40,769 nucleotides of DNA from Acidimicrobiaceae bacterium (lineage in GTDB: Bacteria; Actinomycetota; Acidimicrobiia; Acidimicrobiales; RAAP-2), in NCBI GenBank assembly GCA_027314705.1, contig DAHVAJ010000039.1:1-40769 (forward strand), read 5' to 3'. A program made the translations under genes and the position numbers. Numbering within the stretch: the stretch's first letter is position 1; each line of letters begins with the position of its first letter. Positions 10,082 to 13,197 of this stretch are shown piece after piece. The notes below the pieces were generated by a model that saw nothing but the letters and a program-made list of their open reading frames with translations, was not told the origin of the DNA and did not search any database.

Positions 10082-10915
10082 CTACCGGTCGGCGAGGTGG
10101 AACTTGGCCCGCAGGATGGCGTGGAAGTCCCGCCCCCCGAAGGTCACCAGCCGGGCCGGCCGGTCGCCCTCGCGGCACTCCACGCTCCACCCCGGGGCCA
10201 GCTCGGTGACGCTGAGGCCGTCCACCACCAGCACGGCCGGGCGCGGGCCGGCCACCTCGAGGCGCAGGCGTTCGCCGGCGTCGAGCACCAGCGGTCGGTC
10301 GAAGAGCATGTGGGGCGAGACCGGAGTCAGCACCAGCGCCCGCACGTTGGGCGAGAGGATGGGACCGCGGGCCGAGAGGTTGTAGGCCGTGGACCCGGTC
10401 GGCGTGGCCACGAGGAGGCCGTCGGCCGCGTAGGTGACGAAGGGCCGGTCGTCGACGGAGGTGGCGATGCGCACGGTGTGGCCGGGGACGGTCTTCTCCA
10501 CCGTCGCCTCGTTGAGGGCCCGGCGCTCGGAGACCACCGCCCCCGCCGGATCGCTGACGGTGACGGACAGGGTCATGCGTTCCTCGACGCCGTGCCCACC
10601 GGCCAGGAAGCGCTCCAGCGCGTCCTCCAGACCGGCCGGCTCGACCTCGGTGAGGTAGCCGAGCCGGCCGAGGTTGACGCCGAGCACCGGCACCGAGGCG
10701 TCGAGGGCGGCGTCGACGGCCCGCAGCAGGGTGCCGTCACCCCCGAGGCTGACCACGAGGTCGGCACCGTCGACCACGGCCGAGCCGTCGACCGTCGAGG
10801 CCGGGGTGACGGCGTGGCCCCGCGCCTCGAGCCACGCCGTGGCCCGCGCCGCCAGGGCGGCCGCCTCCGGGTGGTCGGGGTGCACGGCGAACGAGATCCG
10901 GGTCACCGGCCGCAT
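10082..10915 (-). CDS. nadK: NAD kinase
   Basis: 277 residues. It has the diagnostic GGDGT at 58-62 ([14 protein letters not shown]), the NE motif in LNEATVEK, and the [15 protein letters not shown] loop (usually SAGGP). It phosphorylates NAD to NADP with ATP or polyphosphate. The ATG at 10915 sits inside the end of tlyA (13-base overlap), so translation is probably coupled. The neighbouring order tlyA-nadK-recN is conserved across actinobacteria. The C-terminal [17 protein letters not shown] is typical of actinobacterial NadK. Confidence 0.95.
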
Positions 10916-11829
10916 GCCTCACTGCCCCCGGAGGGCCCGGTCACCGCCGGGTCCCTGGGGGCGACGGCCACCGCCGGGTCCCCGGGGGCGTCGGTCACCG
11001 CCGGGTCCCCGTGGGCGTCGGCCACCGCCGCGTCGAGGAGGGCCCGGGTGCGGGCCGGATCGGGGGCGGACTCGGCGGCCGGGGCCCGGGCGTGGAGGAG
11101 GAACTCGACGTTGCCCGCCTGGCCGGTGAGGGGTGACGGCATGGCCCCCATGATGACCGCTCCGGCCACCTCGAGCGCGCCTGCCACCTCCCCGACGGTG
11201 CGTCGGTGGACGGCCGGGTCGCGGATGACCCCCCGTCCCCGGGAGGCCTCGGCCCGGCCCGCCTCGAACTGGGGCTTCACCAGGAGGACGATGTCGGCAC
11301 CGGAGGCGACGGCCCCGCCCACCAGGGCGGGGACGGCCAGGGTGGCGGAGATGAAGGACAGGTCGGCCACCACCAGGTCGACCGGCTGGCCGCCCACGGT
11401 GGCCAGGCTCACGCTGCGCACGTCGGTGCGCTCGCAGCAGAGCACACGGGGGTCGGCCCGGAGCCGGGCGTGCAACTGGCCGTGCCCCACGTCGACGGCC
11501 ACCACCCGGGCCGCGCCCCGCTGGAGGAGACAGTCGGTGAAGCCGCCCGTCGAGGCGCCGGCGTCGAGGGCCCGGCGGCCGGCGGGCTCGATGCCGAAAC
11601 GATCGAGCGCGGCGGCCAGCTTCTCCCCGCCCCGCCCCACGAAGCGCGGTGGTTCGCCGGTGACCACCACGGGCTCGGCCGCGGCCACCATGCGGGACGC
11701 CTTGGTGGCCACGCTCCCCGAGACGAGGACCCGGCCCTGCTCGATGAGCTCGACGGCCTGTGGCCGGCTGGTGGCCAGCCCCCGGCCGACCAGGGCGCGG
11801 TCGAGGCGACTGCGGGCCGCGGGCGTCAG
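10903..11829 (-). CDS. tlyA: TlyA-family rRNA 2'-O-methyltransferase / S4-domain protein, apparent CTG start
   Basis: 308 residues if read from a CTG at 11829 that overlaps the TGA of the upstream gene by three bases (CTGA). The N-terminal S4 RNA-binding domain is encoded at about 6-60 ([19 protein letters not shown], then [12 protein letters not shown]). The FtsJ-like methyltransferase domain follows, with RGGEKL at 66-71, the SAM motif [11 protein letters not shown] at 89-99, VADLSFIS and LVKPQFEAG. TlyA methylates 16S and 23S rRNA and determines capreomycin sensitivity in mycobacteria. No ATG, GTG or TTG exists in frame before the GTG at 11712, which would delete the whole S4 domain, so either CTG is the start or translation enters by coupling. 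The C-terminus has a tail of DPAV-containing repeats not usual in the family. Confidence 0.88.
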
Positions 11830-12338
11830 TCGCCCGGTCCCGCCACCGGCGGGACCGGTGTGGCCGCGGTCTTCTTGGCCGGGGCCTTCTTGGCCGGAGC
11901 CTTCTTGGCCGCGGTCTTCTTGGCCGGAGCCTTCTTCGCCGGAGCCGTCTTGGCCGCGGTCTTCTTGGCCGCGGTCTTCTTGGCCGCGGTCTTCTTGGCG
12001 GGAGCCTTTTTGGCCGGGGCCTTCTTGGCCGCGCTCTTCTTGGCCGGGGCGCCCGACCGGCCGAGCACGGTGGCCACCTGCCGGGCCAGGTCCTCGAGGC
12101 TGGCCACGCCGAGCGTCTCGAGCTGCCGGTTGACCTCGGTGCGGATCTGGGCCACCAGCGCCTCGCTGCTCTTGCGGCTGCGCTCGAGGAGCTCATCCAC
12201 CCGGGCCCGGGCGTCACCCCCCTGCAGCTCCCCGCTCTGCACCAGGTCGGAGACGAGCTCCTCGGCCCGCCTGCGGGTCATGTTGGTGAAGGCGATGCCG
12301 GCGTCGATGTAGCGCTGGAGCGCGTCGTTGTTGGCCAT
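11826..12338 (-). CDS. Phasin-like protein with histone H1-like Lys/Ala repeat tail
   Basis: 170 residues from an ATG at 12338. Residues 1-92 form an acidic, helical domain ([55 protein letters not shown]) resembling phasin or PhaF/PhaI granule-associated proteins. Residues 95-160 are about thirteen (A/P)AKK-type units, a positively charged tail like that of histone H1, Hc1 or Pseudomonas PhaF. Such proteins bind DNA non-specifically; in PhaF the tail links polyhydroxyalkanoate granules to the nucleoid. No PHA synthase is in the window, so a nucleoid role is equally likely. A TAGTCT box exactly six bases upstream suggests a leaderless mRNA, and the stop overlaps the proposed CTG start of tlyA, so it heads the tlyA-nadK-recN-pyrG block. 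Confidence 0.82.
11856..12055. repeat. Degenerate 12-15 bp repeats encoding the (A/P)AKK tail
   Basis: On the plus strand GCCTTCTTGGCCG- and GTCTTCTTGGCCG-type units recur about thirteen times. They are in frame with the phasin-like gene on the minus strand and encode its Lys/Ala tail, so they are likely to vary in copy number. Confidence 0.85.
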
Positions 12339-12403: not shown

Positions 12404-13197
12404 TCACCCGTCGAGGACCCGGCCGACGAGCGTGGGGAGGTCGGCGGCCCGCAGGGCCACCGGGCAGGCCCGGGCCGGGGTGCCCGGGGCGGTGACGCCC
12501 GAGTCGACCAGCGCGAAGGGGATGCCCAGCCGCTCGGCCAGCCGGCCGTCGGTGTCGGGCTGGTCCCCCACCAGCACCACCCCGTCGGCCCCGTCGGCGA
12601 AGCCGAACTGCCGGCGGAGGAGGGCGGCCAGGGGGGCGTGGGGTTTGCCGGCCACCTCGGGGGTCACCCCCGAGGCCGTGGCCACCGCGGCGACCAGGGC
12701 CCCGGACCCCGGCTGGAGACCCTCGGGGGTCGGATGGGTCGGGTCCACGTTGGTGGCCACGAGCCGGCCCGACGACCGCGCCGCGTCGGCGGTCGAGGCC
12801 AGGGTGGCGAAGTCGAAGTGGTGGCTCCACCCCACCACGGCGGCGTGGTGGGGCCCGGCCTCGCTGGTGCGGACACCCCGGTCGGCGAGGGCCTCGGCCA
12901 TGCCGTCCTCGGCCAGCATGCGTACGGTCTGCCCGGGCTCGAGCAGGGAGGCGGCGGCCCGGGCCGAGGTCACGAGGTCGGAGGCCACGGCCTCGATGCC
13001 GATGCGGGCCAGCCGGGCGAGCAGGGTGCCGGTCGTGGGGGCCGAGTTGTTGGTGGCGAAGGCCACCCGCGCCCCCCGCGCCCGTAGCAGGGCCACGGCC
13101 CCGGCGGCGTCGCCGAGCGGCTCACCGGTCAGCCACACCACCCCGTCGAGGTCGATGATCCAGAGACCGGCCGCGGCGAAGGCCGGTCCGGCGTCGT

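Follow-up and report, generated by a model that had tools for sequence, protein, structure and literature searches.

Apparent near-cognate start of tlyA, recurrent and gene-specific in Acidimicrobiales, with a probable link to the upstream stop codon

The gene for a TlyA-family rRNA methyltransferase in a 40,769-nt stretch of DNA (hereafter the window; contig DAHVAJ010000039.1 of assembly GCA_027314705.1, Acidimicrobiaceae bacterium) raises the question of where its translation begins, as its reading frame holds no ATG, GTG or TTG ahead of the S4 RNA-binding domain. The gene belongs to a minus-strand set that comprises a HAD-like ORF, a phasin/HC2-like gene, tlyA, nadK, recN and pyrG. The features needed below are the following.

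11827 to 11829, minus strand: CTG, the putative start codon of tlyA, kept in relatives and marking the onset of constraint on the tlyA frame
11826 to 11828, minus strand: TGA stop codon of the phasin/HC2-like gene, overlapping the CTG by 4 nt as CTGA
10903 to 11829, minus strand: tlyA, TlyA-family rRNA (cytidine-2'-O)-methyltransferase, 308 aa when read from the CTG (TIGR00478, Pfam S4 and FtsJ)
11686 to 11808, minus strand: S4 RNA-binding domain, residues 8-48 counted from the CTG (Pfam)
11089 to 11643, minus strand: FtsJ-like methyltransferase domain, residues 63-247 (Pfam)
11710 to 11712, minus strand: GTG, the first ATG/GTG/TTG of the tlyA frame, rejected as a start (pN/pS of 0.37 between CTG and GTG)
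11826 to 12338, minus strand: phasin/HC2-like gene upstream of tlyA, 170 aa (ORF, profile and domain matches)
10082 to 10915, minus strand: nadK, the next gene, overlapping the tlyA stop and starting with an ordinary ATG (named from its translation)
end at 12404, minus strand: HAD-like ORF (named from reading its translation)
minus strand: recN (named from reading its translation)
8342 to 6759, minus strand: pyrG (profile match)

Read from the CTG, the product of tlyA contains the S4 and FtsJ-like methyltransferase domains (Pfam) by which the TlyA family is recognised, and it scores 197 bits against the TlyA-family profile TIGR00478 (curated cut-off 185.8). With the TlyA 23S equivalog NF049952 the score was 161.8 bits, below the cut-off of 250, hence the gene was not filed under that entry. 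The protein encoded upstream combines a phasin-like N-terminus with a Lys/Ala-rich histone H1 (HC2)-like tail. Tandem repeats are found in both genes: four copies of a 27-bp repeat (10926-11034, minus strand) code for part of the C-terminal tail of TlyA, and approximately 12.7 copies of a 15-bp repeat (11861-12050, minus strand) code for the HC2-like tail.

An earlier note, made from the sequence of the window, had placed the start of tlyA at the CTG which overlaps the TGA of the phasin-like gene, and this CTGA arrangement was confirmed (11829-11827 and 11828-11826, minus strand). Its statement that no ATG, GTG or TTG occurs in frame before the GTG at 11712 holds as well for the window sequence and, since the S4 domain occupies 11808-11686, a start at 11712 would lose nearly all of it. 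The S4 domain is indeed contained in the CTG-started frame, with the difference that Pfam places its edge at 11808 and not at about 11814. A mechanical scan of the whole window for NTGA overlaps between long coding-like frames returned 12 sites, namely four ATGA, four GTGA and four CTGA, in agreement with the ATGA/GTGA couplings that had been noted elsewhere in the window. The remaining three CTGA sites (19600 on the plus strand, 27119 and 24219 on the minus strand) are followed by an ATG or GTG 15-33 codons downstream, unlike the site at tlyA, where none occurs for 39 codons.

The tlyA search covered the genome itself, its relatives and one scan of named contigs, and a start was counted as canonical when the 20 codons preceding the S4 core held an ATG, GTG or TTG. 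Out of 194 distinct Acidimicrobiales tlyA loci, 105 have no canonical start and 89 have one; this count drops 18 duplicates as well as L175 and L430, which have no usable alignment start. A first set of 161 order loci gave 95 without a canonical start and 66 with one; it omits six order loci that duplicate named contigs, of which one has an N at the start and five are non-canonical and enter the count of 194. Rows of 12 duplicate pairs were dropped. The tree set of 160 loci is made up of 79 CTG, 14 ACG, one ATC and 66 canonical starts. None of the 11 copies from the same genus, that of the window included, has a canonical start, and each has CTG; three genomes of this genus gave no tlyA match. 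In a panel of 61 genomes tlyA was matched in 56. Of the 50 loci examined, two duplicate named contigs, and among the remaining 48 a canonical start was seen in 12. When each family was represented by a single genome, a canonical tlyA start was lacking in 26 of 47, including the family of the window (f1, represented by the window itself; L430 of f2, the anchor of which is unreliable, was counted as canonical).

The order loci are mostly the best matches of similarity-ranked lists. Among 28 order loci added later, with another query, a wider sample and selection by family, 23 were canonical, so the frequency of non-canonical tlyA starts depends on the lineage. Canonical starts were found in 66 of the 77 usable named loci from many phyla and in 21 of the 25 usable loci of a phylum sample, the latter including six further loci of the order (all canonical) and seven of the family f73 treated below. 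These comparisons support a habit of this gene that shows in roughly every second order locus studied, with CTG, ACG or ATC as the codon. The earlier remark on the rarity of such starts is to be amended in this sense, the start of tlyA being no local oddity. The comparison of N-termini and upstream junctions in relatives that had been proposed as a check therefore came out in favour of the non-canonical start, which recurs up to the level of all same-genus copies. Two observations may be added here. In L047 (JAENWR010000003.1) an in-frame TGA lies eight codons before the core with no near-cognate codon between, and the first canonical codon is the GTG at +5. In the genus g10 of the window's family no tlyA was found among the genomes listed (G022, G098-G112 and others), save for three weak matches (G109, G139, G182); infC, rsmH and pyrG are present in G022.

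A second lineage, the distant family f73 of the same phylum, lacks a canonical start in 21 of 29 usable tlyA loci. In many of them a CTGA overlap is followed two codons later by a CTG. This CTG persists in L368, L374, L385 and L386, which have lost the overlap, and other loci hold GTC or ATC in its place. Within the examined stretch before the core, L376 and L380 contain neither ATG/GTG/TTG nor CTG/ACG/ATC, and a GTC looks start-like there. GTC is probably used as a start in f73 as well.

Five genes were compared with tlyA in this respect. For nadK the start was canonical in each of the 136 order loci tested, and for the phasin-like gene in 89 of 89 (18 and 19 loci, respectively, over all groups are left out for want of an anchor or for their position at an edge). 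In a panel of relatives, pyrG was canonical in 27 of 29 genomes and rsmH in 21 of 25 within 20 codons and in 25 of 25 within 60 (both strands were searched, and 29 and 25 of 30 were anchored). Canonical starts were absent from infC in all 29 relatives within 20 codons, and ATA, ATC or ATT were seen there by eye. Outside the order, one nadK without a canonical start was encountered (L060). The weak start thus appears specific to tlyA and not genome-wide as far as nadK, the phasin-like gene, pyrG, rsmH and infC are concerned, and in this regard tlyA looks more like infC than like the other compared genes. Set against these controls, the 105 of 194 tlyA loci without a canonical start exceed what chance would give. 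A changed initiator tRNA was also considered and is disfavoured, as there is at least one tRNA-Met (anticodon CAT) with an arm of the initiator type.

As for the surroundings of the start, the tlyA frame overlaps the upstream stop codon by 4 nt in 102 of the 160 tree loci. Among the 79 CTG loci the upstream stop was found in 72, and in 71 of these it overlaps the CTG or lies within 15 nt, i.e., at a spacing of the kind expected for termination-reinitiation (overlap or about 15 nt). Strong Shine-Dalgarno (SD) sites, defined by an anti-SD duplex of -6 kcal/mol or lower, were no more frequent in the leaders of CTG loci (29%) than in shuffled leaders (28%), the value for nadK being 53%. At -4 kcal/mol the corresponding figures are 71% for CTG loci, 54% for shuffled leaders and 88% for nadK, which amounts to a weak excess at most. 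Compensation of the weak start by an SD sequence was rejected, as the tlyA leaders hold no strong site beyond chance; together with the close upstream stop, this absence points to termination-reinitiation. In the window a perfect 11-bp hairpin with a 3-nt loop (11858-11834, minus strand) is situated 4 nt 5' of the CTG, within the 3' end of the phasin-like gene; the repeat search reported no inverted repeat at this position. The folding of the region is not unusual over 91 nt (z of -1.36) and reaches z of -2.4 over 45 nt. As a general element the hairpin was discarded, given a mean z of -0.36 over the 79 CTG loci with three below -2.

Taken at the level of sequence comparison, the use of a near-cognate start at tlyA appears to be real, conserved and gene-specific, and initiation at the near-cognate codon itself is very probable. 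The mechanism we infer from the junctions is as follows. A ribosome finishing the phasin/HC2-like gene would halt at the TGA within CTGA, and an initiator tRNA would be set on the overlapping CTG, giving fMet-Thr-Pro-Ala-Ala and so on with a complete S4 domain; in relatives, initiation would take place on ACG, ATC or another CTG a few codons from the stop. That initiation depends on termination-reinitiation is likely. The weak start would limit the amount of TlyA, an rRNA modifier of which little is needed; the chances that it has been kept in order to keep TlyA scarce are, in our judgement, even. As a whole, near-cognate initiation through termination-reinitiation with a weak start kept for a low TlyA dose is the explanation we favour and consider probable. 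One point counting against it is that CUG initiation is described as inefficient and CUG complexes as unstable in E. coli (PMC11497404).

The main rival holds that start identity at tlyA is simply relaxed: a nearby terminating ribosome would accept any near-cognate codon, and ATG, GTG, CTG and ACG would interchange neutrally with no regulation involved. This seems rather unlikely to us, but it draws on two observations. At least 25 switches between canonical and non-canonical starts are required on the FastTree tree (200 shufflings of the labels give at least 43), and this number fits relaxed starts as well as selected weak ones. Furthermore, the first base of the NTGA overlap follows the last-codon bias of the upstream gene. 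It is C in 76 of 102 tlyA overlaps against 43 expected from the last amino acid, and the same upstream gene, where no overlap exists, has C before TGA in 27 of 32 loci. Because of these non-overlapping ends, and because CTGA is common at nadK too (36 of 69), the excess of C is no evidence of selection for CTG, and selection for CTG over GTG at the overlap was rejected.

Two other observations speak against neutral interchange. The first one comes from nadK. The distance from the tlyA stop to the nearest canonical codon is at most 15 nt, overlaps included, in 127 of 135 loci of this gene, yet all 136 starts are canonical. Junctions in the NTGA register with any first base comprise 36 C, 17 G, 15 A and one T (n = 69) at this gene, and an ATG or GTG is available within 20 codons at every one of the 36 CTGA junctions, in 35 cases at codon -5 and usually directly after the CTG; at tlyA, on the other hand, a canonical codon falls within 20 codons at only 8 of 76 CTGA junctions. 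Coupling therefore does not relax starts in general, nor is it sufficient by itself to account for a weak codon, and this is why the low-dose reading is preferred. The suggestion that stop-start coupling may substitute for a good start consequently has to be amended: coupling alone does not do so, for the equally coupled nadK keeps ATG, GTG or TTG in every order locus tested. The second observation concerns tlyA loci without an overlap. The tree set has 26 loci with neither overlap nor canonical start, and in every one a CTG, ACG or ATC is found close to where the start should be, whereas 10.6 (sd 2.4) are expected, which indicates that the near-cognate codon is constrained. ACG makes up 0.4% of gene-body codons, yet nine of these 26 loci have it at codon -6, where other relatives have ATG.

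The explanation by a near-cognate start also agrees with the position at which the tlyA frame becomes constrained. In 13 hand-picked close loci with the CTG at the same place, pN/pS of the tlyA frame was 1.57 upstream of the CTG, 0.43 in the seven codons after it, 0.37 between the CTG and 11712 and 0.31 in the following part of the gene; the wrong frames over the same stretch gave 1.56 and 1.83. Coding constraint on the tlyA frame hence begins at the CTG. Frameshifting or stop-codon readthrough could be supposed to join TlyA to the upstream protein, as the window shows no stop in the tlyA frame over the 121 codons 5' of the CTG (the stop lies 122 codons upstream). Such a fusion is highly improbable, for the upstream part of the frame is unconstrained and the relation of the frames varies: against the 102 of 160 loci with a 4-nt overlap, 13 order loci have an in-frame TGA, TAG or TAA 1-5 codons before the near-cognate codon, preceded by 40-498 open codons. 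Because of these 13 relatives, no single shared frameshift or readthrough mechanism can account for the loci. The CTG as the start of tlyA, as it had been proposed, is accordingly supported by its conservation, by the onset of constraint and by the stops located just upstream in relatives.

An internal canonical start, i.e., the GTG at 11712 or, in some relatives, a GTG five codons into the core, would leave the S4 domain incomplete and is hardly more credible than a fusion. The GTG at 11712 is the first ATG/GTG/TTG in the frame, but the stretch separating it from the CTG is constrained as protein. A GTG at +5 is not enriched, being present in only 36 of 94 non-canonical loci, and for 33 of the 94 loci one has to go at least 20 codons into the core to meet a canonical codon. 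Finally, although the window stems from an assembly of 131 contigs, a sequencing, assembly or binning error as the source of the CTG, a possibility raised beforehand, is excluded for practical purposes by the 11 same-genus copies and by recurrence in many separate assemblies, including single-contig genomes with CTG (G038, locus L124) and ACG (G254, locus L181).

Some known systems are helpful in placing the start of tlyA. The TlyA of B. subtilis belongs to the same enzyme family. The study devoted to it suggests that part of the ribosomes may go unmodified at the low native level of TlyA and that too much of the enzyme is detrimental under some antibiotics, e.g., erythromycin; it concludes that the subunits require the methyl groups to associate properly (PMC12805891). 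In the same study, a spot assay showed no visible effect of tlyA overexpression on the growth of the wild type, which disfavours a strong dose limit in B. subtilis, and “start codon” is a term absent from its main text (PMC12805891). The 4-nt overlap and the short-range reinitiation are shared with ATGA/GTGA termination-reinitiation pairs, a process described as strongly distance-dependent in E. coli and Haloferax; the difference is that at tlyA a CTG stands within the overlap, and non-canonical starts are mentioned for such pairs as a rare possibility (PMC10666635).

In Streptomyces, sigR is likewise an actinobacterial gene with a conserved non-canonical start, a GTC repressed through IF3 (PMC5472188). 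According to this source the start was misannotated by gene finders, lowers the dose of an operon protein and is critical for the control of SigR dose, and the same source gives infC as autoregulated by IF3 (PMC5472188). sigR differs in having an extensive ribosome binding site, in being the upstream member of its pair and in a GTC conserved across Streptomyces only (PMC5472188), whereas tlyA is a downstream partner with CTG/ACG across the order and CTG/GTC/ATC in another family. Like tlyA, infC, which encodes IF3 and starts with AUU/AUC, is a ribosome-related gene on non-canonical starts. It differs by an SD-like AGGAG, seen by eye in many loci, and by ATA/ATC/ATT codons, as tlyA has no strong SD, adjoins the upstream stop and uses mainly CTG/ACG. 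As at other genes of the infC/sigR kind, the lack of ATG/GTG/TTG at tlyA is conserved between species (105 of 194 loci in the order, all 11 in the genus, 21 of 29 in f73). The strong SD that precedes the weak start of IF3-repressed genes was not found at the tlyA loci. With good SD sites at both infC and sigR but not at tlyA, the analogy to IF3 control is incomplete, and any part played by IF3 here would be conjectural.

The targets of TlyA, which we take to be C1409 of the 16S and C1920 of the 23S rRNA, are located at the decoding helix and at the inter-subunit bridge facing it. C1920 is also given in PMC7317525. The loss of another decoding-site methylation (C1402) is stated to raise mis-initiation at AUU in E. 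coli (preprint PMC13317604). By analogy, tlyA might be self-adjusting: methylation-poor ribosomes would be laxer on starts and make more TlyA, and full methylation would reduce it. We regard this as speculative and improbable. Such a feedback loop, if real, would be a second homeostasis of the infC type, sensing ribosome modification rather than the amount of IF3, and is just as doubtful.

CUG is not a common non-AUG start in bacteria (PMC11497404), and experimental characterisation is said to be available for very few non-canonical starts, with infC and sigR as the cases given (PMC5472188). Among the leading results of searches in open-access papers, nothing was found on non-canonical starts of tlyA or of Acidimicrobiales. 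Gene finders limited to ATG/GTG/TTG are expected to truncate TlyA in these genomes, with the loss of the RNA-binding domain. The CTG/ACG start of tlyA, with a coupled neighbour as a control, would offer a natural system for asking when bacteria keep bad starts, and it touches upon the question of whether rRNA modification may feed back on the fidelity of initiation.
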